A stretch of DNA of 37,363 nucleotides from Gammaproteobacteria bacterium. Its GTDB lineage: Bacteria > Pseudomonadota > Gammaproteobacteria > Chromatiales > Chromatiaceae. Below the pieces are notes generated by a model, which had not been told where the DNA came from, ran no database searches, and worked only from the letters and a program-made list of their open reading frames with translations. The stretch's first letter is position 1. Every line of letters starts with the position of its first letter. Positions 4,703 to 37,363 of the stretch are shown here, in pieces. The stretch spans positions 1 to 37,363 of the forward strand of contig RZZN01000034.1 of the NCBI GenBank assembly GCA_009929855.1, in the 5' to 3' direction. The position numbers and the translations under genes were made by a program.

Positions 4703-5457
4703 GGGTGTATCTCCGGACTGGGCTGGGATGATGAAGGAGGGGGGCCGAGACGGCGCGGTGCGCTCGTGGGCGGCTCGGTCGCGGCCGCCAGACGTCGCTC
4801 GATGGCGCGTCGCGAGGCGCGGATATGTCGACGCATCAGCCACTCGGCCAGCTCGCCATCGCGCTCGGCGATGGCCTCGACGACCCGCTCATGCTCCCTG
4901 AGCGCCTCGGCCGCACGGTCGCTCTTCATGCCGAACTGGCAGCGATACATGCGCACGAGGTGATAGAGATCCTCGCAGAGTAGATCGATCAGCTGGCGGT
5001 TGCCACTGCCCTGGACGATGCGGAAATGGAAGTCGAGATCGCCTTCCTGTTGGAAATAGGCCTGCCAATCGGTGCGCGCGACCTCGCCACGGTGGCGTGC
5101 CAGCAGGGCTTGGAGCTCGGCCACTGACTCATCCGACATCCGCTCGGCGGCGATCCGCGCGGCCATGCCTTCCAAGGCCTCACGCACCAGATAGATCTCC
5201 AGGAGCTGCGCGCCCGAGAGACGAATGACCCGGGCGCCCAGATTGGGGCGACGCTCCACCAGCTTGCTCGATTCCAGCCGGCGCATCGCCTCGCGCAAGG
5301 GGCCGCGACTGATCCCGTAGCGGGCAGCCAGCACCGGCTCGCTGATCTTGCTCCCGGCCGGGATCTCACCGACGATGATCGCCTGACGCACCTGGTCGAA
5401 GATGCGATCGGCGATGGTCGAGGATTCGATCGCGAGCTCGGTGATCTGGCTTTGCAT
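4699..5457 (-). CDS. GntR/FCD-family regulator of the prp genes
   Basis: A 252-residue FadR-like transcription factor. The N-terminal winged helix-turn-helix covers about residues 12-80 ([18 protein letters not shown] is the recognition region). The C-terminal FCD ligand domain covers about 90-225 and has the Asp/His pattern of metal-binding FCD domains ([25 protein letters not shown]). A Pro/Ser-rich tail follows. It overlaps prpB by 4 bp and lies between prpE and prpBC-acnD, so it almost certainly controls propionate use; the ligand is probably a cycle intermediate such as 2-methylcitrate (inference). This differs from enteric bacteria, where a sigma-54 activator, PrpR, does the job. ATG 5457 was chosen; an in-frame TTG at 5472 is possible, but it lies inside the TTGTCGACAA palindrome. 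Neither start has a clear Shine-Dalgarno. Confidence 0.88.
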
Positions 5458-5460
5458 TGA

Positions 5461-5540
5461 GATTGTCGACAACTTTTAGATTTGACACCCCTAATTTAGC
5501 CATATTTAGGGTCTTGTCAAGCAAAGATGTCGACAATCTT
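5461..5540 (-). promoter_or_regulatory. Promoter and paired operators of the gntR-prpB-prpC-acnD unit
   Basis: On the minus strand a perfect -35 box TTGACA (5520-5515) is followed 16 bp later by TAAATT (5498-5493), a reasonable -10; transcription would start near 5486. The promoter is bracketed by two copies of the palindrome TGTCGACA, at 5464-5471 (extended to TTGTCGACAA, 5463-5472) and 5528-5535. Their centres are 64 bp apart, about six helical turns. Between them lies a nested imperfect inverted repeat, TTGACA..CCTAA facing TTAGG..TGTCAA (5482-5520). FadR-type GntR proteins bind short palindromes with a GT-N-AC core, so autoregulation by the adjacent GntR is the simplest reading; binding itself is inferred. 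Confidence 0.6.
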
Positions 5541-5632
5541 GCGTGATTGGCCCGTGCACTGACGCATGCGTGTCGTCCTGGCATGGGCGCGATCCGGTCC
5601 CTCAGGCGCGGTGCAGATCCCTGCGTCGGCAC

Positions 5633-7528
5633 TCAGTCATGCTTGGCATAGCCGATCCGGCCCAGCGCGGCCTCGATCTCATCCAGGATGGCCGGATCGT
5701 CGATGGTGGCCGGCATGCGATAGTCCTTGCCGTCGGCGATCGACTTCATGGTGCCGCGCAGGATCTTGCCGGAGCGGGTCTTGGGCAGACGCTGCACGAT
5801 CGCCACCGTCTTGAAGGCGGCGACCGGGCCGATCTGCTCGCGCACCAGATTGACCAACTCCTTGATGAGGCCCGACTCGTCACGCGCCACGCCTGATTTG
5901 AGCACGACCAGACCCAGCGGCAGCTCCCCCTTGAGCGAGTCGGCGGCACCGATGACAGCACACTCGGCCACGTCCGGATGCCCGGCCAGCACCGCCTCCA
6001 TGGCCCCGGTGGAGAGCCGGTGACCGGCGACATTGATGATGTCGTCGATGCGGCTCATGACGAAGAGATAGCCGTCCTCGTCCAGATAGCCCGCATCACC
6101 GGTCAGATACCAGCCCGGTTGGGCGGAGAGATAGGATTGGATGAATCGGGCATCATTGCACCAGAGTGTCGACAGGCAGCCGGGGGGCAGGGGGAGACGG
6201 ATCATGATGCGTCCGATGTCGCCCGCCCCGACCGCGAGACCCTCCTCGTCCAGGACCTGGACATCGTAGCCGGGCACCGCGCGGGTCGGCGAGCCGGGCT
6301 TCACCGGGAGCGGCTCGATGCCGAGACAGTTGGCGGCGATCGCCCAGCCGGTCTCGGTCTGCCACCAATGGTCGATGACCGGAACCCCGAGGATGCGCTC
6401 GGCCCATTGGAGCGTATCCGGGTCGCACCGCTCGCCGGCCAGGAAGAGCGCCCTGAATCCGCCGAGATCGTAGCGACTCAAATGCGAGGCGCTCGGGTCC
6501 TCGCGCTTGATGGCCCGGAAGGCGGTGGGCGCGGTGAAGAGCACGGCGACCCCATGCTCGGCGATCACCCGCCAGAAGGCCCCCGCATCGGGCGTGCCGA
6601 CCGGCTTGCCCTCGTAGATGATGGTGGTGCAACCGGCCAGGAGCGGTGCATAGACGATATAGGAGTGTCCAACCACCCAGCCGACGTCCGAGGCCGCCCA
6701 AAAGACCTCGCCAGCCTTGACGTCATAGACATTCGCCATGCTCCAGGCCAGCGCAACCGCGTGTCCGCCGTTGTCCCGCACCACGCCCTTGGGCTGCCCG
6801 GTGGTGCCCGAGGTATAGAGGATGTAGAGCGGATCGGTGGCCGCGACCGGGACACAGGCGGCCGGCGTGGCGGCGGCGAGCGCCTCGCTCCAATTGAGAT
6901 CGCGACCGGGGACGAGGGTGCCGGGCTCCTGCTCGCGTTGCAGGATGATGCAGTGCTCAGGCTGGTGCTCGGCGAGCGTGATGGCTGAGTCGAGCAGTGG
7001 CTTGTAGTGCACGACCCGATTGGGCTCGATCCCGCAGGAACCGGCGACCATGACCTTGGGCTTGGCGTCGTCGATCCGGGTCGCCAGCTCGCGCGCCGAG
7101 AAGCCGCCGAAGACCACCGAGTGGATGGCGCCGATCCGCGCACAACCGAGCATGGCCACCGCCGCCTCGGGGACCATGGGCATGTAGACGATGACACGAT
7201 CCCCTTTGGTGACACCCAGCGCCAACAAGGCACCGGCAAAGCGCGCGACCTGATCCTGCAGCTCGGCATAGGTGATGGTGGTGCGGCTCCCGGTCACCGG
7301 GCTGTCATGGATGATGGCCGGCTGATCGCCGCGTCCGGCGGCCACGTGGCGGTCGACCGCGTTGTGACAGGTGTTGAGCATCCCCCCCGCGAACCAGCGA
7401 TAGAGTGGTGCGGCCGAGTCGTCGAGGACCTGGTCCCAGGGTCGATCCCAGTCGATGAGCCGCGCGGCCTCGGCCCAGAATGACTCAGGATCCTTCATCG
7501 AACGATCATAGACGGCTTGATAGGTCAT
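5633..7528 (-). CDS. prpE: Propionyl-CoA synthetase PrpE
   Basis: An AMP-forming acyl-CoA synthetase that activates propionate (and probably acetate) with ATP and CoA. It has 631 residues, matching PrpE (about 628) rather than Acs (about 650). The N-terminal ACAS_N segment starts MTYQAVYDRSMKDPESFW. The nucleotide loop YTSGTTGQPKGVV is the A3 motif, and HWWQTETGW is the A5 region. The C-terminal PKTRSGK carries Lys588, the residue acetylated and inactivated by protein acetyltransferases in this family. GAGGAG sits about 8 bp before the ATG. It lies 160 bp upstream of the gntR start on the same strand, feeding PrpC with propionyl-CoA. The gap contains a separate promoter, so prpE may be transcribed independently. 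Confidence 0.94.
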   Translation of the reverse strand: MTYQAVYDRSMKDPESFWAEAARLIDWDRPWDQVLDDSAAPLYRWFAGGMLNTCHNAVDRHVAAGRGDQPAIIHDSPVTGSRTTITYAELQDQVARFAGALLALGVTKGDRVIVYMPMVPEAAVAMLGCARIGAIHSVVFGGFSARELATRIDDAKPKVMVAGSCGIEPNRVVHYKPLLDSAITLAEHQPEHCIILQREQEPGTLVPGRDLNWSEALAAATPAACVPVAATDPLYILYTSGTTGQPKGVVRDNGGHAVALAWSMANVYDVKAGEVFWAASDVGWVVGHSYIVYAPLLAGCTTIIYEGKPVGTPDAGAFWRVIAEHGVAVLFTAPTAFRAIKREDPSASHLSRYDLGGFRALFLAGERCDPDTLQWAERILGVPVIDHWWQTETGWAIAANCLGIEPLPVKPGSPTRAVPGYDVQVLDEEGLAVGAGDIGRIMIRLPLPPGCLSTLWCNDARFIQSYLSAQPGWYLTGDAGYLDEDGYLFVMSRIDDIINVAGHRLSTGAMEAVLAGHPDVAECAVIGAADSLKGELPLGLVVLKSGVARDESGLIKELVNLVREQIGPVAAFKTVAIVQRLPKTRSGKILRGTMKSIADGKDYRMPATIDDPAILDEIEAALGRIGYAKHD

Positions 7529-7830
7529 GACGCTTCTCCTCGAGGTGGTGGAATGCCGGTCCCGGCTATATCAGCCGCGGCTGTTGTCGTATTGGCCGGT
7601 ATGATGAGGACGCACGGCAGCAACCACTCCGCCAGCATCCCGGCCGGGATACCGGGATCCAGGCCAGGGATGGGAAGCTTGCAAGCGCCGCCAATCCTCT
7701 CAGGTCTGGAGTCTCCTGTCCGCACGATGTCAAGTCTGCGAAGACTCGGGTCAGGGTCCCGCGATCGCGTCGGCCCGGACGCTCGACGAGGGGCGTCGGG
7801 GCCGACGCGACGCGGATCCAGCGGGCGAGG
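7529..7830. other. Intergenic region between hemL and prpE
   Basis: No gene is supported in these 302 bp. The hemL-proximal part holds a strong hairpin (7767-7808). The remainder is the leader of prpE, ending in its Shine-Dalgarno. A half site TTGTCG near 7585 resembles half of the palindrome found upstream of gntR, but no full TGTCGACA palindrome is present, so common control with the rest of the prp genes is not evident from sequence. Confidence 0.6.
7767..7808 (-). terminator. Probable hemL operon transcription end hairpin
   Basis: A 16-bp stem with one mismatch: GCGTCGGCCCGGACGC at 7767-7782 pairs with GCGTCGGGGCCGACGC at 7793-7808 across a 10-nt loop. It starts 22 nt after the hemL stop on the minus strand. 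There is no T-run, so it may act as a 3'-stabilising or factor-assisted terminator rather than a classical intrinsic one. Confidence 0.55.
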
Positions 7831-9114
7831 TCAGCTGGCGAGGAGCGCGAAGCTCTGCTCGGCCGCCTCGAGCGTGACCTGGATCTCGTCATCGCCATGG
7901 GCCATGGAGACGAAGCCGGCCTCGAAGGCCGATGGGGCCAGATAGACCCCGCGCTCCAGCATGGCGTGGAAGAAGTGCTTGAAATGATCCTGGTTGCAGC
8001 ACGTGGCCTGGGCGTAGCTGGTCACCTGCTCGGCGGAGAAGAAGAGTCCGAACATGCCGCCAGCCTGGTTGGTGCTGAAGGGGATCCCGGCGGCGGCGGC
8101 GCGCGCCTGCAAGCCAGCGAGGAGCTCGCTGGTCATGCCGCTCAGCCGCTCGTAGAAGCCGGGGATGCTGACCAGCTCCAGGGTCTTGAGACCGGCGGCC
8201 ATGGCGATCGGGTTGCCCGAGAGCGTGCCGGCCTGGTAGACCGGACCGAGCGGCGAGATCCGCGACATGATCTCACGCTTGCCACCAAAGGCGCCGACCG
8301 GCATCCCGCCGCCGATGACCTTGCCGAGCGCGGTCAGGTCCGGGGTGACCCCATAGAGCGCCTGGGCGCCGCCGAGCGCGACGCGGAAACCGGTCATGAC
8401 CTCATCGAAGATGAGCACCGCGCCATATTGGTCGCAGAGCTCGCGCAGCCCTTCCAGGAAACCGGGCACGGGAGGGATGCAGTTCATGTTGCCGGCGACC
8501 GGCTCGACGATGATGCAGGCGATCTCGTCACCCATCGCGGCGAAGGTCTGACGGACCTGCTCCAGATCGTTGTAGGCGAGCGTGATGGTCAGCTCGGCCA
8601 GGGCCGCGGGCACGCCCGGCGAGCTCGGCTCACCGAGGGTCAGTGCGCCCGAGCCGGCCTTCACCAGCAGCGAGTCGACATGACCGTGATAACACCCCTC
8701 GAACTTGATCACCTTGTCGCGACCAGTGTAGCCACGCGCGAGGCGCAGCGCGCTCATGGTCGCCTCGGTACCCGAGCTGACCATGCGCACCAGATCCATG
8801 CTCGGGACCAGCTCGCAGACCTTGTCCGCCATCCGGGTCTCCAGCTCGGTGGGCGCGCCGAACGAGAGCCCTTTCTGGATGCGCTCTTGCACGGCCGCGA
8901 GCACCTGCGGGTGGGCGTGGCCCAGGATCATAGGACCCCAGGAGCCGACATAATCGACATAACGCTTGCCGTCGGCGTCGAAGGCGTAGGGCCCCGAGGC
9001 GCTCTCGAAGAAGACGGGGTCGCCGCCCACCCCGCGAAACGCCCGCACCGGCGAGTTGACGCCGCCCGGGATATGGCGCTGCGCGGCTTGGAAGAGGTCA
9101 TGGGATCGGCTCAT
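7831..9114 (-). CDS. hemL: Glutamate-1-semialdehyde 2,1-aminomutase HemL
   Basis: A PLP-dependent aminomutase that converts glutamate-1-semialdehyde to 5-aminolevulinate in the C5 route to haem, sirohaem and (bacterio)chlorophylls. At 427 residues it is full length. The N-terminus ([20 protein letters not shown]) is the HemL signature, DEVMTGFR binds the cofactor, and Lys265 in [18 protein letters not shown] is the PLP Schiff-base lysine. Its ATG overlaps the thiE stop by 4 bp, so it is the third gene of a coupled thiD-thiE-hemL unit, an arrangement seen in several gammaproteobacteria. A strong hairpin follows the stop. Confidence 0.96.
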
Positions 9115-9746
9115 CGAGGGTCTCCATCGGCAAAGAGTGAGGCATAGGCACGGGCCGCGGCGGTCAGGTCCGGCTGCGCGAAGACGCCAGAAACGACCGC
9201 GAGCATGTGGGCACCGGCCGCGATCAAACGCCCGCCATTGTCTGGCGTGATCCCGCCGATCGCAACCACCGGAATCCCTAGAGCCTGGCGCGCGGCAGTC
9301 AGCAGCTCGGGCGCCGCGCGGCAGGCACCGGGCTTGGTGGCCGAAGCGAAGAAGCTGCCGAAGGCGACATAGCTCGCGCCAGCGTGCTCGGCCGCGCGCG
9401 CGCGCTCCAGATCGTCATAGCAGGAGACCCCGATGATGGCCGCGTCGCCCAGGAGACGCCGCGCCGTCGCCACATCGGCATCGTCGCGACCCAGATGCAC
9501 GCCAGCGGAGGCGAGCGAGGCCGCCAGCCGCGGATCGTCATTGACGATGAACAAGGCACCCTGGGCGCGACAGACCGCATGAACGGCGCGGGCTTGCGCC
9601 TCGCGTCGCTGCCGATCCCGCCCCTTGTGACGATACTGCAGGATCCTGGCACCGCCCGCGATCGCTTGCGCGACCTGGCCAGCGAGAATCTCCGGGGCGG
9701 TCGGTGCATCGGGAGTCACCAAATAGAGTCCAGCGAGCCTGGTCAT
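9111..9746 (-). CDS. thiE: Thiamine-phosphate synthase ThiE
   Basis: Joins HMP diphosphate and thiazole phosphate to give thiamine phosphate. The 211-residue TIM barrel shows the family motifs: LQYRHKGRD near residues 36-44, [32 protein letters not shown] (phosphate-binding region) and the GGITPDN loop. The start at 9746 gives [14 protein letters not shown], a normal ThiE N-terminus. An open frame extends upstream to 9905 but only inside thiD. Both junctions are ATGA overlaps (thiD stop/thiE start and thiE stop/hemL start), which indicates a tightly coupled three-gene operon. Confidence 0.94.
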
Positions 9747-10537
9747 GACGCGAGCGCGTACAGCCGATTGGGGGTGAGTTGACAACGCCCGGTGCGCAAG
9801 GCGCGATCGAGACTCTCCCAGGTATAGGTCTGGGCCTGCGCGACGGCCTCGGTCATCTCCAGTCCGAGCGCGAGGCGGCCCGCGATGGCGCTTGCCAAGG
9901 TGCAACCAGAGCCGTGGAACTCGGCATTGAGGCGCGGCCAGTCCCAGCTTTGCTCGAAGCCATCTGGGCCGAACAGCCAGTTGGTCACATGGCTGGTGTC
10001 GTCATGCGCACCCGTGATCAACACCCACCGGGCGCCGAACGCCTGCAAGCGGGCGGCGCACTCCCGGAGGCTCGGCGCGGCGGTCAGCGCATAGGCCTCG
10101 GGCAGATTGGGGGTGATGAGTGTACTGCGTCGAATGAGATTCTGGCGCAGCTGATTGAGCATGGCCGCGTCCATCACGGCATGTCCGGTGCCGGTGCGCA
10201 AGATCGGGTCGAGCACGACGGGCAGATCCGGGTGCTCGTCGATCAGTGCGTTGAGGATCCGGATGACCCGCGAGCTGCCGATCATGCCGATCTTGAGCGC
10301 ACGCGGCGCGCCATCGCGCAGCAGCGCGCGGCACTGACCCTCGATCTGCTCGGGCGGCTGCGGATGGAGATCGATCAATCCGCAGGTATCCTGCTCAGTG
10401 ATCACGCTGATCGCGGTCACCGCATAGGCCCCCGCGGCACGCACGGCTTCGGCATCCGCGAGGATGCCAGCACCGCCGCAGGGGTCATGCCCGCCAACGC
10501 ACAGGACCACTGGTGGAGCAACGACATTGTCATTCAT
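9743..10537 (-). CDS. thiD: Hydroxymethylpyrimidine (phosphate) kinase ThiD
   Basis: A ribokinase-fold enzyme that phosphorylates HMP and HMP-phosphate in thiamine synthesis. It has 264 residues. Visible features are the N-terminal VGGHDPCGGAGILAD substrate loop, VLDPILRTGTGHAV, and HGSGCTLASAIA near the C-terminus with the anion hole and Cys212 region. It is the first gene of thiD-thiE-hemL and diverges from the rubredoxin gene. I saw no TPP riboswitch in the 244-bp leader; a possible -35/-10 pair and a perfect 12-bp palindrome are there instead. Confidence 0.93.
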   Translation of the reverse strand: MNDNVVAPPVVLCVGGHDPCGGAGILADAEAVRAAGAYAVTAISVITEQDTCGLIDLHPQPPEQIEGQCRALLRDGAPRALKIGMIGSSRVIRILNALIDEHPDLPVVLDPILRTGTGHAVMDAAMLNQLRQNLIRRSTLITPNLPEAYALTAAPSLRECAARLQAFGARWVLITGAHDDTSHVTNWLFGPDGFEQSWDWPRLNAEFHGSGCTLASAIAGRLALGLEMTEAVAQAQTYTWESLDRALRTGRCQLTPNRLYALAS

Positions 10538-10700
10538 GATTGTGAGGTCATCTCGCTAGAGTCGTATGGGCTCGGACCGATTCGATGCGGATCCGGGAGG
10601 TGCAAGACCCCAGCGTCATGCCAGGGCCCGCAACCGCTCGGTGCAAGTGCCGAGCCTGCTGAGTGTTGAAATTCGCGGTCACCTGCCCGACTTGTCGACG

Positions 10701-10735
10701 ATTAAACCCCGTTGTGGTCATGGCTGTCGACAGCG
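10701..10735 (-). promoter_or_regulatory. Candidate thiD promoter with overlapping palindrome
   Basis: On the minus strand TCGACA (10730-10725) and TTTAAT (10706-10701) are separated by 18 bp and resemble -35 and -10 boxes. The -35 lies in the perfect palindrome GCTGTCGACAGC (10723-10734), whose core equals the TGTCGACA found twice before gntR. Function is inferred from position only. Confidence 0.3.
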
Positions 10736-10781
10736 CGATCCTGCGAACCAGGTGACCCCCCCTTGCCCTGGAGGCGACTCG

Positions 10782-10946
10782 ATGAAAAGCTACATCTGCG
10801 TGATTTGCGGGCTGATCTATGCCGAGGAGGACGGCTGGCCGGAGGACGGCATACCCCCCGGCACGCGCTGGGAGGATGTCCCGCTCGATTGGAAGTGTCC
10901 GGAATGCGGCGCGGGCAAGGAGGATTTCGAGATGGTCGAGATCTGA
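10782..10946 (+). CDS. Rubredoxin
   Basis: A 54-residue one-iron electron carrier. The iron-binding pairs CVIC (Cys6, Cys9) and CPEC (Cys39, Cys42) have the standard spacing, and [18 protein letters not shown] is the conserved rubredoxin core. GGAGG lies 8 bp upstream of the ATG. It diverges from thiD and is followed by an A-type Fe-S protein on the same strand. Likely partners are unknown; in related bacteria rubredoxin genes commonly sit next to hemL/thi genes and are linked to redox handling under low oxygen (inference). Confidence 0.96.
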
Positions 10947-11087
10947 TCGGCGACCCACCGATCGCGGCCGCTCCAACGGTCCATTCGTACGGCACGACGC
11001 GCGGGTGGCTCTGGAATCGTCCGGCCCATATCTGATACTGTTACTCGGTTTCATGATTCGTTCGTTTTTGATTCAAGAGGTATTCAC

Positions 11088-11453
11088 ATGTCCGCGGTCT
11101 TGAGTGAATCGGAGCTGACGCTGACCACGCCCGCTCAGGTGAAGATGGCCGATCTGTTCCAACAGGTCGATGACACGATCAAGGGTGTGCGCGTGTTCGC
11201 GACCCCGGGCGGCTGCAGCGGCATCAGCTTCGGCATGACCTTCACGGATGTCATCAACGAGGACGATGGTGTGCTGGCTTGCCCGGGTTTCAAGGTCGTG
11301 GTCGATGACGAAACCTTACCCTATCTGCGCGGCGTCGAGATCGACTTCATCGATCAGGGCGACGGCAATGCGACCTTCGTCTTCAACAATCTGCCTGATC
11401 TCGGCGGCGGCTGCGGCTCCTGCGGCTCATCCTCCGGCGGCGGCTGCTCCTGA
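11088..11453 (+). CDS. A-type (IscA/HesB-like) Fe-S protein with Cys/Gly tail
   Basis: A 121-residue HesB-like protein. The core matches A-type carriers: residues 41-50 read GGCSGISFGM with the first conserved Cys43. The C-terminal motif, however, is Cys109-Gly-Ser-Cys112 instead of the usual Cys-Gly-Cys, and a Ser/Gly tail ends with an extra Cys120; Cys65 is also present. It could still hold a cluster but with altered geometry. AAGAGG precedes the ATG by 7-8 bp. It lies upstream of argC (93 bp gap) and a second, canonical A-type gene (erpA) follows argC, so this one is probably specialised. DsrR-type proteins are an alternative relative, but those lack the cysteines. Confidence 0.85.
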   Translation: MSAVLSESELTLTTPAQVKMADLFQQVDDTIKGVRVFATPGGCSGISFGMTFTDVINEDDGVLACPGFKVVVDDETLPYLRGVEIDFIDQGDGNATFVFNNLPDLGGGCGSCGSSSGGGCS

Positions 11454-11546
11454 TCGCGCAGTCACGGCATGGGCGAAGGCGCTCGCCCGGCATCACCTGG
11501 TCGAGTGCCAGCGCCGACCGAGCGTAGGTCTGATGAGGTATTTCGC

Positions 11547-12581
11547 ATGCTGAGAGTCGGTATCGTGGGCGGAACCGGTTACACGGGATCCGAGCTCCTG
11601 CGAATCCTCGCACGCCATCCCGCGGTGGAGGTGGCGGTCATCACCTCGCGCACCGAGGCCGGGATCAAGGTCGCGGATCTCTTCGCGCACCTGCGCGGCT
11701 GGCTCGATCTTGCCTTCACCGAGCCAGATGAGGGCGCCCTGGCCGAGTGTGACCTGGTCTTCTTCGCCACGCCCAATGGCACGGCGATGAAATCCGCACC
11801 AGGCCTGCTCGCCCGCGGGGTGCGCCTGATCGATCTAGCCGCCGATTTTCGACTTGCGGATCCCGCCCTGTGGGAGACCTGGTACGGCATGCCGCACGCT
11901 TGTCCGGAGTTGCTGGCGGAGGCCGTCTACGGCCTGCCCGAGATCCATCGTGAGCAGGTGCGTACCGCGCGGCTGGTCGCCAATCCAGGCTGCTATCCGA
12001 CCGCCGTCACACTCGGATTCATGCCGCTGCTGACGGCGGCTGCGATCGACCCGACCTGGTTGATCGCCGACGCCAAGTCGGGCGCGAGCGGCGCGGGCCG
12101 CAAGGCCGAGACCGGCATCCTGATGGCCGAGATCGGCGAGAGTTTCAAGGCCTATGCGGTCACCGGGCACCGGCACTCGCCCGAGATCCTCCAGAATCTT
12201 CGCCACGCCTGCGCCGACCCCCGATTGAGTCTGACCTTCGTGCCACACCTGGTACCGATGATCCGTGGGATCGAGGCGACGCTCTATGCGCGACTCAATG
12301 ACCCGAGCCTGGATCTCGAGGCACTGTTCAGACGGCACTACGCCAACGAGCCATTCGTCGACGTCATGCCGATGGGGAGTCACCCGGACACGCGCTCGGT
12401 ACGCGGCGCGAATGTCTGTCGCATCGCCGCCGCGCGTCAGCGTGGATCGGATGTCGTCATCGTGCAATCGGTGATCGACAATCTGGTCAAGGGCGCGGCT
12501 GGACAAGCAGTCCAGAACATGAATCTGATGTTCGGCATCCCCGAGTCGGCGGGGCTCGATGCCCTGGCGCTGCTGCCCTGA
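11547..12581 (+). CDS. argC: N-acetyl-gamma-glutamyl-phosphate reductase ArgC
   Basis: NADPH-dependent reduction of N-acetylglutamyl phosphate, the third step of arginine synthesis. It has 344 residues, type 1 ArgC. The N-terminal dinucleotide loop [17 protein letters not shown] is at residues 5-21, and the catalytic Cys149 is in NPGCYPT. HRHSPEI and the C-terminal [15 protein letters not shown] are family hallmarks. The start at 11547 has GAGG upstream and directly begins the Rossmann fold; the longer open frame from 11469 adds residues with no family resemblance. It lies 84 bp before erpA, a common gammaproteobacterial order. Confidence 0.96.
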
Positions 12582-12665
12582 TCTCGACCCTCGCAGTGCT
12601 TGAAAAAACCGAGCGAAGGCATAGGTTAAAGACGATACCACCCCTTGATAGAGGACCGATCCGCA

Positions 12666-13016
12666 ATGACCAGCGCAACCGTCACCGATGCCCCTCTCGT
12701 CTTCACCTCATCCGCCGCATCCAAGGTGGCGCAGCTCATCTCCGAGGAGGGCAATCCCGAGCTGATGCTCCGGGTCTACATCCAGGGCGGGGGGTGCTCG
12801 GGATTCCAGTATGGCTTCAGCTTCGATGAAGAGATCCAGGATGGCGATACCGAGGTGGTGACCGATGGTGTGACCCTACTGATCGATCCCATGAGCCTCC
12901 AGTACCTGACCGGAGCCGAGATCGACTACACCGAAGGACTGCAGGGGGCTCAATTCGTGATTCGCAACCCCAATGCCTCGACGACCTGCGGGTGCGGTTC
13001 CTCATTCTCGACCTGA
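12666..13016 (+). CDS. erpA: Iron-sulfur cluster insertion protein ErpA
   Basis: An A-type carrier that delivers Fe-S clusters to essential apoproteins, such as those of isoprenoid synthesis. It has 116 residues. The three cluster cysteines are Cys44 ([11 protein letters not shown]), Cys108 and Cys110 (TTCGCGSSF), the standard ErpA pattern. ATG 12666 is preceded by AGAGGA; an in-frame TTG at 12645 would add seven residues and is less likely. A TTGAAA box at 12600-12605 with TAGGTT 16 bp later is a weak promoter candidate. It converges with the small minus-strand gene that ends at 13046. Confidence 0.96.
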
Positions 13017-13045
13017 GTCGAGAGCCACCTCTGATGCGGCTGGTG

Positions 13046-13333
13046 TCAGTCTTGCGCCACCGACTCCTCGCGAGTCGATGTGGGCACAGGACGCGCCGGG
13101 ATCACCAGCGGGATGGAGAGCATGTCGGGCGGTCTATTCTCTGGTTGCGCCTGGACCGGCACTGGAGGCTCGGCCGTCGTCGGCATGGCGCTCCAACGCC
13201 AGACACCATATGCCAGCAGCGCCAACGTGACCAGGATCGAACCCGCCAGGAGTACACGTCGACCCACTCGCGGTTGCGGTCGCTTTGACACCGACCATTC
13301 TGGCTCTCTAATCTTGTAATCGCGCATGCCCAT
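13046..13333 (-). CDS. Small single-pass membrane protein, unknown function
   Basis: I do not recognise this gene. The 95-residue product has a basic N-terminus (residues 1-26), one clear membrane helix at about 27-48 (RVLLAGSILVTLALLAYGVW) and a Pro-rich C-terminal segment of about 45 residues, the topology of an inner-membrane protein with a periplasmic tail. No Shine-Dalgarno is obvious; ATG 13333 or 13327 may be used. It sits convergent to erpA and divergent from tyrS, a place where relatives often carry anmK and/or an M23 peptidase gene; it might be a shortened remnant of such a peptidase's N-terminus, but no catalytic domain is left. Hydrophobic pattern and codon bias favour a real gene. 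Confidence 0.6.
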   Translation of the reverse strand: MGMRDYKIREPEWSVSKRPQPRVGRRVLLAGSILVTLALLAYGVWRWSAMPTTAEPPVPVQAQPENRPPDMLSIPLVIPARPVPTSTREESVAQD

Positions 13334-13714
13334 TCAAGCGCAAGATTCGAATAATTCGAAGAATTGATGATTGTTCGAAGTTTAATCCCAAAGGCTTCGA
13401 ACGGACAAGCCGAATTCTGATGGGTTCCGATTGCTCGTCTGGGTGGGATGGCCAAACCAGGCCCACGCAGAGGTGCTCGAAATCCTGGTGCTCTCCTTGC
13501 GCTTGGCTGCCCGCCCCTGGGCCAAGGGCGGCCGCGGGACCTGGGATCACCGAGTTGCACACGGCATTTCCACACCTCCACTTTATGGCTGCTTTCAAGG
13601 CCCTTGCCAACGGCATGGCGGTCTCGAAACCAGCCTTGCTTGTGGCCGTCGCGGCGGCGGCGTACCCTTGCCAGATCCCCCCAAACCTCCAACGAGATCC
13701 GAAGACCGAACGTC
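13334..13714. other. Intergenic region upstream of tyrS
   Basis: This 381-bp divergent region contains no convincing gene. Its left part is AT-richer than the surroundings and has four TTCGAA sites within 56 bp (13346, 13355, 13374, 13396). A hairpin CCGCCC/GGGCGG lies at 13511-13531. Open frames run through the right part in several registers, including one continuous with tyrS, but their composition is not protein-like. The tyrS promoter must lie here; I could not assign it. Confidence 0.5.
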
Positions 13715-14929
<1,215 letters not shown>

Positions 14930-33426: not shown

Positions 33427-34206
33427 TCAGGCCCCGATGCCCGGCCCCTCGGCGAGCCCGGCCAGGACCTCGGCGACATGGAATACCCGCATCGGCGAGC
33501 CGAGCCGACGCAGACGCCCGGCGATGTTCAGCAGACAGCCCAGATCGCCACCCAAGAGCGTGTCGGCCCCGGTCGCGCGGATGTGCGCGATCTTGTCGTC
33601 GACGAGTCTCACCGAGATCTCGGGATACTTGACGCTGAAGGTGCCACCAAAACCGCAGCAGACCTCGGCGTCCGCGAGCTCGCGCAGCTCCAATCCGGCG
33701 ACCGTGGCTAGCAGCGTGCGCGGCTGACCCTTGATGCCGAGCGAGCGCAGCCCCGAGCAGGAATCATGATAGGTCACGACCGCATCGAAGACTGACTCGA
33801 CCCGCTGAAGACGCAGATGATCGACGAGGAAGGCGGTCAGCTCCCAGGATTTGGCCGCCAGTGCATGCGCGCGCTCGCGCCACGCCGGATCCGCGTCGAG
33901 GAGCACCGGATAGTCATGCCGGATGGTGGCCAGGCAGGAGCCGGAGGGGCCCACGAGTGCATCGCAGCCCTCGAAGGCGGCGATGACCTGGCGGGCCAGC
34001 GCGCGGGCCGACTCGAGATCACCCGAGTTGTAACCGGGCTGGCCACAGCAGGTCTGCGCCGATGGCACCAGGACGCGACAACCCGCATCCTCCAACAGCT
34101 TGACCGTGGCCAAGCCGACCTGCGGTCGAAAGAGATTCATCAGACAGGTCGCGAAGAGACCGACCAGCGGCCCAGGAGTCGAGGGAGGGGCGTCTGTGAC
34201 GCTCAT
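33427..34206 (-). CDS. lutA: LutA (LldE) cysteine-rich-domain lactate oxidation subunit
   Basis: A 259-residue (Fe-S)-binding subunit of the LutABC/LldEFG lactate-oxidising complex. It has two CCG cysteine-rich domains, with CCGQPGYNSG (first half) and CCGFGGTFSVKYPEIS (second half), and FATCLMNLFRP and DSCSGLR as the partner cysteines. These domains resemble heterodisulfide reductase and glycolate oxidase subunits. ATG 34206 has no strong Shine-Dalgarno; an earlier ATG at 34245 adds a non-family segment. It is the first gene of the lutA-transporter-lutBC unit. A TAGAAT hexamer at 34386-34381 could be a -10. Confidence 0.92.
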   Translation of the reverse strand: MSVTDAPPSTPGPLVGLFATCLMNLFRPQVGLATVKLLEDAGCRVLVPSAQTCCGQPGYNSGDLESARALARQVIAAFEGCDALVGPSGSCLATIRHDYPVLLDADPAWRERAHALAAKSWELTAFLVDHLRLQRVESVFDAVVTYHDSCSGLRSLGIKGQPRTLLATVAGLELRELADAEVCCGFGGTFSVKYPEISVRLVDDKIAHIRATGADTLLGGDLGCLLNIAGRLRRLGSPMRVFHVAEVLAGLAEGPGIGA

Positions 34207-34428
34207 GGCGATTCGGACTCGCGTGATCGAAGCATGGGTGACCAATCAGATGGCCAGCGCCATCAGCGAGGCCGCGTGGGTCGACTGGAGTCAGGTCACT
34301 GACACGGGGGGCATGCGAGTGGCCGAGCGCCGCGAGCCCAAGACCGTCGAAGCTCTCGATCGATGACTCCCGACAGGCCCATTCTACAGTCAAGCCCATG
34401 CGATGAGGAATGCGGACGCCCGATCGGG

Positions 34429-34767
34429 TCAATCCCGGGCCGCCGCGTCGCCCCGCAGGGTCCAGCCGAACTGAACCGGCAACCTCACGTAGAAGAGATC
34501 GAGCGCCTCGCCGGCAAGATGCTCGATGAAACGGTCGGCCTGCGCCGAGGTCAGGACGAATCCGACCTCGACCGGCAGATCACCGGCCAGCTCGAAGAAA
34601 TTCGCCTCGTGCAGCCGTCCATGCCGTCCAAATCCAGCCAGGGCGCGGAATGCCGAGCCGCCGGGCAGACCGAGCCCTTTGGCCTCCTCCAAGAGCCACT
34701 CGTAGACCAGCTTGTGATGATGGCGCTGGCCCTCGCTCACATAGAATTTGAGAAAACAGCCGTTCAT
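34429..34767 (-). CDS. DUF190 (PII-like) protein next to crcB
   Basis: A 112-residue DUF190-family protein, small alpha/beta with a PII-like ferredoxin fold. The typical N-terminus LKFYVSEGQRHHHKLVYEWLLEEAK and the GGSAFRALAGFGRHG segment are visible. GAGGA precedes ATG 34767. It lies 61 bp downstream of crcB on the same strand; DUF190 genes are recurrent neighbours of crcB, which suggests a regulatory or accessory part in fluoride export (inference). A homologue with longer N-terminus from 34836 is possible but unlikely. Confidence 0.88.
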   Translation of the reverse strand: MNGCFLKFYVSEGQRHHHKLVYEWLLEEAKGLGLPGGSAFRALAGFGRHGRLHEANFFELAGDLPVEVGFVLTSAQADRFIEHLAGEALDLFYVRLPVQFGWTLRGDAAARD

Positions 34768-34828
34768 GGGTCGATTCCTCGTCGGTGCTTCGCCAGCCGG
34801 ATGATGGATCGGATCTCGCCCGGCCGGC

Positions 34829-35224
34829 TCAGGCACGCGCCGCGCCCAAGAGTAGATGCGCCAGCGCCATGCCGAGTGCCGTGAGCGCGAGCGCGCCGAT
34901 CAAATGGGCGGTCGCCGTGGCCAAACCCCAGAGATACTGACCGCGCGCCAGCAGCGTGACCACCTCGCCCGAGAAGGTGGAAAAGGTGGTGAGTCCGCCC
35001 AGAAAACCGGTGATCAGAAAGAGTCGCCACTCCGGCGCCACGCCGGGGTGGCGGGCACTCCAGGTCAGCGCCAGGCCCACCAGCAGACCGCCCAGCAGAT
35101 TGGCCGTCAGCGTGCCCAGCGGAAGCGTCGGGAAGACTGGATTGAGCCGATACCCCAGCACCCAGCGCAACAGTGCGCCGATCCCCGCGCCAGAGAAGAC
35201 GGCAAAGGCTGCCAATGGAGTCAT
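34829..35224 (-). CDS. crcB: Fluoride channel CrcB/Fluc
   Basis: A 131-residue, four-helix membrane protein that forms dual-topology dimers exporting fluoride. Signature stretches are [26 protein letters not shown] (with the pore Asn) and [17 protein letters not shown] (with the Phe and Ser/Thr pore ladder). The ATG at 35224 has a weak Shine-Dalgarno. I found no crcB-motif (fluoride) riboswitch in the 208-bp region upstream. It is followed by the DUF190 gene. Confidence 0.93.
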
Positions 35225-35432: not shown

Positions 35433-37363
35433 ATGACGCTGTCCATGCTGCCTTGCCATCTCCCCGCGGCGGTCCTGCTGCTGACCCTGGACGACGACAC
35501 CGGGCGACCGCGTCCCATGTCACCAGGTGCGCTCGAGACGGCCCTGGCGGGCGCGGCCTTGTTGGAGCTGGCGTTCTTGGAGCTGATCGACAATGACCTA
35601 CGCCACCTGCAGGTCGTCCGCTCTCGCGCCGACCGCGTGCCGACCGCGCTCGCGCCCGTCTTCGATGCCTTGTCGGCCCAGCCGATGCCGCTCGGGATCG
35701 CCGAGGCACTGGCGATCGCGGCCATGTCGGTGCCGCAGATGTTGCCGATCTGGTATGACGAGCTGATCGATCTGGGCATCCTCGAGCCGCTCGGGCGTGG
35801 TCTGAGATCCGCGCCCACGACCCATGTCAAGGCCGATTGGGCGCCAGTGCGCGCACTGCGACGACACATCCGCGCACTGCTGCTCGGGGACGAGCTGCCG
35901 GATGCACTGGATCTGGCGCTGATCGCCGTGCTGGAGGCCAGCGGGCTGGCCGCCTCGCTGTTCACGCCGGATGAATGGTCCGCCCGACAGCCACGACTCC
36001 AGCAGCTGCTGCGCATGGAGCTGATCGGACAGGTGCTGCTCGGGGTGATCCGCGAAACCGATCCCAGCACCTACGAGGACACCACGGCACAGCTGCTGGG
36101 TCTGCGCCAGCACGCCCCCAGCACCACGGCCGGGGGCCTGCCCGCGGTGGTCTCGGCGATGGGGCATGTCTATCGCGCACTGGGCGTACGGCGCGGCGCG
36201 CTGGCCTTGAGCCAGATGAACCAGCCCGGCGGCTTCGACTGCCCGGGCTGTGCCTGGCCGGAATCCAGCGCACATGAATCACGCCTGGATTTCTGCGAGA
36301 ACGGCGCCAAGGCGCTGGCCACCGAGGCGACCTTGCGCCGGCTCGATGCCGCGTTCTTCGCGGCCTGGAGCCTCGAGGATCTGGCCGCGCAGTCGGATCA
36401 CTGGCTCGAGCAGCAAGGCCGCCTGACCCAACCCATGATCCGCGAGCCAGGGGCCAGCCACTATCGAGCGGCGACCTACGAGGAGGCCTACGCACTGATC
36501 GCGCGCGAGCTGCACGCCCTGTCCAGCCCCGAGGAGGCGGTCTTCTACACCTGCGGCCATGCCGTCAACGAGGCCGCCTTTCTCTTTCAGCTCTGCGCCC
36601 GTCAACTCGGCACCAACCATCTGCCATCGAGCATCAACCTCTGTCACGAGCCCTCGGGCAAGGCGCTGCAACAGGCGCTCGGACACCCGAAAGGCGATGC
36701 CCGGCTGGAGGACTTCGAGCAGGCCGACGCCATCTTTCTCTTCGGACACAATCCAGGATCCAACCATCCGCGGATGCTCCGCGTGCTGGAGACCGCGGCA
36801 CGCCGTGGCGCGGTCATCGTCGCCATCAATCCCATGCTGGAGGCGGGCTTGTCGGCCTTCGCCAATCCGCAGCGTCCCGATGGGCTGCTGGGACGCGCCA
36901 CGCCCCTGCAGCAGCTTCATCTTCCGGTCCAGATCAATGGGGATCTCGCCCTGGTGAAGGGCATGATCAAATGCGTGCTCGAGGCCGAGGCCCAAGCGCC
37001 CGGGACGGTCCTGGATCAGGACTTCATCCGCGCGTCCTGCACCGACTTCGCCGCCTTCGCCGAGACGATCGCGCGCACCAGCTGGGAGCAGATCGAGTCC
37101 GGCGCGGGGATCGACCGGACGCGGATCGAGACAGCGGCGCGGGTCTATCTCGCCGCCAAGGGCGTGGTGGTGACCTGGGGATTGGGCATCACCCAACAGG
37201 TCAATGGCACCGAAACCATCCGCGAGATCATCAATCTGATGCTGCTGCGCGGGCATGTCGGCCGACCCGGCTCGGGGCTCTGTCCAATGCGCGGGCACAG
37301 CAACATCCTGGGGATCCGCTCGATGGGTGCCGGCGAGCGCATGCCCGAGTCATTCCTGACGGC
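35433..37363 (+). CDS. GPP34 domain fused to YdeP/FdhF-type molybdopterin oxidoreductase (3' end beyond window)
   Basis: One uninterrupted frame of 643 codons that runs off the right edge. Residues about 8-210 match GPP34 (GOLPH3/Vps74): LPAAVLLLTLDDDTGRP, ALAGAALLELAFLE, then WYDELIDLGILEPLG. In eukaryotes these domains bind phosphatidylinositol-4-phosphate and membranes. From about residue 225 the chain matches E. coli YdeP: FDCPGCAWP with Cys270 and Cys273, FCENGAKA with Cys288 (Fe-S site), and NLCHEPSG with Cys404-His405 in the place of the formate dehydrogenase selenocysteine-His. FGHNPGSNHPRML and GLCPMRGHSNI bind the molybdopterin dinucleotide. YdeP proteins are about 760 residues, so about 350 remain unseen. 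The YdeP part keeps its full N-terminus, with almost no linker. The substrate is unknown. ATG 35433 lacks a clear Shine-Dalgarno; ATG 35445 is an alternative. Confidence 0.88.
   Translation, partial: MTLSMLPCHLPAAVLLLTLDDDTGRPRPMSPGALETALAGAALLELAFLELIDNDLRHLQVVRSRADRVPTALAPVFDALSAQPMPLGIAEALAIAAMSVPQMLPIWYDELIDLGILEPLGRGLRSAPTTHVKADWAPVRALRRHIRALLLGDELPDALDLALIAVLEASGLAASLFTPDEWSARQPRLQQLLRMELIGQVLLGVIRETDPSTYEDTTAQLLGLRQHAPSTTAGGLPAVVSAMGHVYRALGVRRGALALSQMNQPGGFDCPGCAWPESSAHESRLDFCENGAKALATEATLRRLDAAFFAAWSLEDLAAQSDHWLEQQGRLTQPMIREPGASHYRAATYEEAYALIARELHALSSPEEAVFYTCGHAVNEAAFLFQLCARQLGTNHLPSSINLCHEPSGKALQQALGHPKGDARLEDFEQADAIFLFGHNPGSNHPRMLRVLETAARRGAVIVAINPMLEAGLSAFANPQRPDGLLGRATPLQQLHLPVQINGDLALVKGMIKCVLEAEAQAPGTVLDQDFIRASCTDFAAFAETIARTSWEQIESGAGIDRTRIETAARVYLAAKGVVVTWGLGITQQVNGTETIREIINLMLLRGHVGRPGSGLCPMRGHSNILGIRSMGAGERMPESFLT

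Follow-up and report, generated by a model that had tools for sequence, protein, structure and literature searches.

A GPP34 domain fused in frame to a divergent YdeP-type molybdenum oxidoreductase in a Chromatiaceae genome

Two known protein families meet in the gene described here. The first, the GPP34/GOLPH3-Vps74 family, is represented by GOLPH3, which binds PI4P through W81, R90, R171 and R174, inserts a hydrophobic hairpin (residues 190–201) into the membrane (PMC13408441; PMC4414131), can use a positively charged surface for membrane contact as well, and also binds the tails of enzymes (PMC13408441). SCO4440 of Streptomyces coelicolor is a bacterial GPP34 protein that has been linked to wall-deficient cells; the part of that report available to us mentions no enzyme partner, and it states that no earlier work had described GOLPH3-like proteins from prokaryotes (PMC12402492). 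The second family, FdhF/YdeP, includes E. coli YdeP, which supports acid resistance and carries a cysteine at the cofactor-binding place where formate dehydrogenases have selenocysteine; no explanation had been proposed before that 2014 paper, and its available text names no reaction for YdeP (PMC4283999). Furthermore, one paper notes an association between YdeP and chlorite dismutase (PMC9751292), and milk samples showing chlorate reduction were rich in ydeP, with no proof that the gene plays a role there (PMC13094775).

With this in mind, we analysed a stretch of 37,363 nucleotides (the window), which is the entire contig C148 of a draft genome (G000; 4,813,963 bases in 414 contigs). On its forward strand, the ATG at 35433 opens a frame of 643 codons without a stop that runs off the contig end at position 37363, the gene continuing beyond. 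The original prediction had read this frame as a GPP34 domain running directly into a YdeP-type enzyme, and profile searches bear this out: PF05719 (GPP34; the accession first given, PF08018, was wrong) matches residues 10–200 (E 6.1e-23, 82.4 bits against a cut-off of 29.1, profile positions 1–192 of 201), and TIGR01701 (FdhF/YdeP) matches residues 233–642 (E 7.8e-137, model positions 2–412 of 744), both in the same frame without a stop. Judging from the sequence, two scores of such strength, obtained for unrelated families in one frame, are not a product of chance. The features of the locus are the following.

34432..34836, reverse strand: DUF190 gene (family search), not part of the fusion
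34829..35224, reverse strand: divergent crcB-like gene (fluoride channel type; open frame), not part of the fusion
35433..37361, forward strand: GPP34-YdeP fusion open frame, 643 codons, cut by the contig end and continuing on contig C385
35460..36032, forward strand: GPP34 domain (PF05719, Pfam profile match), residues 10–200
35790..35810, forward strand: residues 120–126 (LGRGLRS), aligned with the GOLPH3 hairpin; hydrophobic tip lost
36033..36128, forward strand: GPP34 end and linker, residues 201–232; no stop; in-frame GTG codons at 36033 and 36045
36129..37358, forward strand: YdeP/FdhF-type molybdopterin oxidoreductase (TIGR01701, N-terminal 412 of 744 model positions)
36240..36296, forward strand: codons of Cys270, Cys273 and Cys288, presumed [4Fe-4S] ligands; Cys in 40 of 40 rows
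36642..36647, forward strand: codons of Cys404-His405, presumed molybdenum ligand pair; 40 of 40 rows

The gene at 34829..35224 on the reverse strand is presumably crcB, and no promoter-like sites were found upstream of the fusion. Further along the contig, a gene at 33427–34245 (lutA type by sequence) has a match at 72–75% in nine of the ten sister species of the genus, and the contig thus belongs to this genus. The crcB-like gene has weak matches in five of these nine species, located elsewhere, hence the gene order between 33427–34245 and 34829–35224 has changed in the genome studied here. Behind the fusion gene lie a SulP-type transporter gene and a DUF3375 gene.

The remaining 310 residues of the fusion are found in the same genome at C385, positions 2–931. 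TIGR01701 gives seven matches in this genome, and the sole other strong one is at positions 2–925 of C385 (model positions 432–742, E 9.6e-74), while the third-ranked match (E 4.8e-24, model positions 99–611) lies in a frame of its own. Since the gap of 18 residues between the N-terminal piece on C148 and the C-terminal piece on C385 is the same in all six relatives shown, we take the two pieces as one gene of about 971 codons. The length of the whole protein, 643 + 18 + 310 = about 971 residues, replaces the approximately 990 residues expected at first, and no stop interrupts the 643 + 310 codons. Scored separately, the N part reaches 459.3 bits and the C part 249.5 bits, both below the TIGR01701 cut-off of 582.15, which their sum exceeds.

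Within the enzyme part, the Molybdopterin family PF00384 is matched at residues 330–617 (E 9e-19), and the molybdopterin dinucleotide-binding domain PF01568 in the C385 piece (E 5.4e-8). All 40 YdeP rows, the fusion among them, share Cys270, Cys273, Cys288, Cys404, His405 and Arg620 without exception, and the fusion keeps the ligand residues of the family to which E. coli YdeP belongs. We take three N-terminal cysteines and a Cys-His pair to be defining features of FdhF/YdeP, and we assume from superfamily knowledge that Cys270, Cys273 and Cys288 are the [4Fe-4S] ligands. At the near-invariant positions of the N part, the fusion departs at 9 of 67 (W349Y, S374C, N396H, G419P, M584L, A614S, V625I, Q626L and T630S) and 26 of the 40 rows at none; S374C, V625I and Q626L are unique to the fusion among these rows. 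Other YdePs on long branches depart likewise (L152 at 8 of 66, L153 at 13 of 75 and L154 at 14 of 74 positions), and the C-terminal piece departs at 7 of 39 near-invariant positions, the same as L154. In the YdeP tree, the end branch of the fusion measures 1.59 against a median of 0.35, with two other rows as long or longer. Its YdeP part is 47–51% identical to 22 of 23 YdeP loci, and the nearest YdeP seen, from genome G558, is 54% identical and forms a 785-residue frame without GPP34. As far as the residues tell, such departures would suit a changed substrate or a weaker constraint alike. In a Pelagicoccus MAG (L048), an FdhD gene (5076–5957) overlaps the start of the stand-alone YdeP gene (5914–8253), as expected for an FdhD-dependent enzyme.

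The GPP34 part shares the family profile match, yet it departs from GOLPH3 in the residues that hold the latter to membranes. Aligned with GOLPH3 and 36 other bacterial domains, the window copy has S, A, P and L at the places of W81, R90, R171 and R174, that is, none of the four PI4P residues is kept; no domain of the 37 has W81 or R90, two have R171 and 19 have R174. The hairpin stretch is shortened to LGRGLRS, with two hydrophobic residues and no aromatic one; three to six hydrophobic residues are found in 35 of the 37 domains, and L082 has none. Altogether, the window copy, which in contrast to GOLPH3 has neither the PI4P residues nor the hairpin tip and is fused to an enzyme, appears to be one of the copies for which a GOLPH3-like hold on membranes is least likely. 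Of 30 positions that are conserved in 70% of the set, it differs at 10; among the other 27 domains, seven differ at more than 10 and L102 at exactly 10, and by this count the domain looks divergent yet no outlier. In the tree of 37 domains it stands alone on an end branch of 1.93 (median 0.39), the sole end branch flagged as long. An AlphaFold model has low confidence (mean pLDDT 54.2) and says nothing reliable on the GPP34 part, with block means of 25–43 over residues 1–200, a region covered by the window row only.

The genome holds two PF05719 matches, the second being a stand-alone GPP34 gene at positions 48614–49213 of contig C180 (L001), 61% identical over the domain to a copy in genome G068 and lying downstream of a lysine 2,3-aminomutase-like gene, so named from its sequence. 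This stand-alone copy matches human GOLPH3 (3kn1) at E 5.7e-7, whereas the window copy has no PDB match up to E 10.

At the junction, about 32 residues (201–232), comprising the GPP34 end and the linker, separate the two profile matches, and the GPP34 match ahead of the join extends to profile position 192 of 201. Under a codon model of the neighbouring genes, the frame of the fusion beats the other five in the 90-base windows starting at residues 201, 221 and 241; overall it is the best in 29 of 31 windows, a reverse-strand frame being higher at residues 181 and 261. A frameshift at the junction was considered and rejected, as there is no sign of one in the three windows. The original prediction of no stop or frameshift between the domains agrees with the open frame and with these windows, read on the assembled sequence and not on reads. 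In stand-alone YdePs (25 loci, of which L070 is short and broken), the start codon lies roughly 10–40 residues before an A(G/A)G motif, a range to be read with the reservation that some open frames extend further upstream, so that the true starts are not certain. This motif is kept in the fusion as TTAGGLPAVV, which argues that the entire YdeP N-terminus has been retained and YdeP was not cut short where the two parts meet; the GPP34 domain takes the position that a short leader usually has in this family. Three in-frame start codons near the GPP34 end (ATG 36015, GTG 36033 and GTG 36045) would give a leader of about 28–38 residues before the AGG motif, a normal length for a YdeP, and thus a separate YdeP beside the fused product is possible; none of the three has a clear Shine-Dalgarno stretch directly upstream. 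GTG 36147 and ATG 36159 are unlikely as YdeP starts, both lying downstream of the AGG motif with which stand-alone YdePs begin.

How rare is the fusion? In the family, 6 of 210 genomes carry GPP34 over the cut-off, one of them with the GPP34-YdeP fusion. The counts of PF05719 over the cut-off are 8 in 369 genomes of the class, 9 in 398 of the phylum and 4 in 187 Myxococcota, in samples that overlap and of which several include the genome studied here. With the whole fusion as query, some match was found in 185 of 194 family genomes, in 15 of 369 class genomes at E 1e-60 and in 132 of 177 relatives of G558 at E 1e-15; among the matches listed for the family and the class, only the window itself spans both domains, and none does among those listed for the 177 relatives of G558. 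The ten sister species of the genus have no GPP34 domain and no close YdeP, the best match (E 6.2e-25) being a distant molybdoenzyme, and tblastn against four sister stretches, in a search for the fusion site, gave matches for the DUF190 query only, none for the fusion or the C385 proteins. The fusion has matches in 937 plasmid records, none of them covering more than 80% of its length; H1, H6 and H10 (among the best 20 of the 937), with matches starting well upstream of YdeP, leave no room for GPP34, and the GPP34 part alone as query gave no plasmid match. Scans of viral contigs gave no relative, and 18 phage records match the fusion, none over 80%. Hence the fusion occurs in one genome only among those searched, and conservation of the architecture cannot be demonstrated. 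Two origins were considered and set aside. An operon of adjacent GPP34 and YdeP genes finds no support in the 15 genomes with close YdePs, none of which has GPP34 over the cut-off (one weak match below it contains stops); as for an enzyme inherited within the family, G089 and G122 have YdePs that belong to a group of 28 rows (99/99) from which the window is absent, the placement of such a long branch being unsure.

GPP34 itself is found fused elsewhere. We assembled 36 GPP34 domains over the cut-off from the PF05719 genome searches; 25 lie in short frames with 8–35 residues after the domain, and 11, the window included, have at least 59 residues after it and count as fused. The expectation that bacterial GPP34 proteins, like SCO4440, mostly stand alone holds for this majority, yet fusions are not rare, in a sample that leans on Pseudomonadota and Myxococcota; GPP34 is said to be widespread in Actinomycetota (PMC12402492). 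GPP34-MFS fusions (L004, L009, L073 and, by resemblance, the frame-broken L006) occur in two genomes, G051 and G505. A GPP34-P450 fusion was identified by family scan in G372 (L080), and another, beyond the 36 domains, in G1209 (L169:5306–6799), which is cut by a contig end and assigned to P450 by resemblance to L080. L071 combines GPP34 with a probable transmembrane domain as read from its sequence. In L007 and L010 the partner (X) belongs to no Pfam or NCBIfam family, and L099 and L100 are placed with them by the tree alone. In the GPP34 tree, the MFS (94/88), P450 (100/100) and X (100/100) fusions each form one separate group. All carry GPP34 at the N-terminus with the partner behind, as in the window; they differ from it in their partners and, for the MFS, P450 and X fusions, in each being present in two or more genomes, which GPP34-YdeP is not. 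With MFS, P450, transmembrane and X partners, GPP34 has repeatedly served as an N-terminal module, and this broader pattern is a more useful result than the single GPP34-YdeP case.

Some surroundings of these fusions may be recorded as well. At L119, a GPP34-X gene (8522–9871) adjoins two Chromate_transp genes (7154–8282), and at L118, in another genome, a second one (11882–13132) adjoins Chromate_transp (13143–14261), one gene being scanned and a second assigned by resemblance. At L114, a GPP34-transmembrane gene (8986–10233) is followed by a multihaem cytochrome c gene (10249–11772).

What, then, does the GPP34 domain do on this enzyme? We tentatively favour the view, without putting it at an even chance, that the gene is a true fusion of about 971 residues in which the GPP34 module serves a divergent molybdoenzyme in docking or oligomerisation. 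According to this proposal, an in-frame gene fusion would yield a single protein of about 971 residues, the C-terminal three quarters of which would be a divergent oxidoreductase of YdeP type, presumed to carry a [4Fe-4S] cluster and, on Cys404, a bis-MGD molybdenum. The N-terminal GPP34 domain would be an accessory module that may offer a docking or oligomerisation surface and keep the enzyme at a partner protein; as the domain lacks the residues with which GOLPH3 grips lipid, its role would be nearer to the enzyme-tail binding of GOLPH3 than to its grip on lipid through PI4P and hairpin. The substrate is predicted to be a small formate-like molecule, and as several near-invariant positions have changed, a different substrate or electron partner is possible. 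The frame, the two domains, the kept cluster and metal ligands and the absence of a second case in the genomes searched are observations, from which the docking role, reached by elimination and from the other GPP34 fusions, would be a best guess. Counting against it, both halves sit on long branches and the architecture is confined to one genome; the drift of a failing gene would look similar to the 9 of 67 departures in the YdeP part, and the in-frame starts at 36015, 36033 and 36045 could yield a separate YdeP.

The last of these points leads to the rather unlikely case of two products, arising either from a sequencing or assembly error that hides a stop between adjacent genes or from an internal start for YdeP. 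The assembly is a draft in 414 contigs that breaks the gene itself, the inter-domain stretch is of a length that a GPP34 tail and a YdeP leader could together account for, the three starts are in frame at a suitable distance from the AGG motif, and without reads a substitution error that erased a stop is conceivable. Yet a single frame is favoured across the junction windows, the starts are not preceded by a clear Shine-Dalgarno, and the contig could be assigned to the genus through its 33427–34245 gene; moreover, no neighbouring GPP34/YdeP pair was seen, also not in the 15 genomes with close YdePs, and among the matches listed no other close YdeP match extends into the GPP34 profile match. 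That GPP34 is instead a passenger without a role, joined by a recent accident to a gene now drifting in one lineage, we regard as unlikely, if less so than two products. It would explain the restriction to a single genome among those searched, the fast divergence of both halves, the eroded hairpin and the lack of GPP34 and close YdeP in ten sister species; 643 + 310 codons free of stops, retained ligands for cluster and metal and a codon usage typical of coding sequence in 29 of 31 windows speak against it, and L152, L153 and L154 depart from near-invariant positions as much as the fusion does.

About equally improbable as the passenger, in our estimation, is a membrane tether, in which GPP34 would carry the cytosolic molybdoenzyme to the inner or an intracytoplasmic membrane through lipid contacts other than PI4P. 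P450 and YdeP, two of the fusion partners, are not in themselves membrane proteins, which counts against a tether. The residues give no support to the membrane recruitment originally envisaged, and the idea appears weakened by the missing PI4P residues (S, A, P and L; 0 of 4 kept) and the lost hairpin tip (LGRGLRS). Still, GOLPH3 employs a positively charged surface besides PI4P and hairpin (PMC13408441), at least three hydrophobic hairpin residues are present in 35 of the 36 other bacterial domains, and two other kinds of fusion, with MFS and in L071 (transmembrane by sequence reading), have membrane-protein partners. The docking module on a true fusion stays our preferred, if tentative, reading.

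In summary, GPP34-YdeP is a real architecture of two known families, found in one genome and, to the searches made, undescribed. That it was new had been proposed from the start, and among the matches listed in open PMC papers we found no description of it, and no paper holding both GOLPH3 and molybdopterin. The phrase 'GPP34 domain' occurs there in three papers titled on GOLPH3 or the Golgi and PF05719 in one paper on a cnidarian symbiosis; most matches listed for the short name GPP34 concern an insecticidal protein that shares this name. Hardly any function has been assigned to bacterial GPP34 proteins, and in general fusions show what a domain works with. The set of fusions, comprising transporters, P450, a probable transmembrane protein beside a multihaem cytochrome and a molybdoenzyme, thus provides direct test objects, and in the fused GPP34-YdeP both families can be tested in one construct. 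It is a speculative and rather improbable extension that GPP34 is a general bacterial docking module, a bacterial counterpart of GOLPH3 as an enzyme adaptor, with repeated N-terminal fusion; similarly doubtful is its corollary that transporters, P450s, a cytochrome-linked membrane protein and the molybdoenzyme would be brought to one shared site or partner. If GPP34 were such a general docking module, the enzyme-retention role of GOLPH3 would predate the Golgi.
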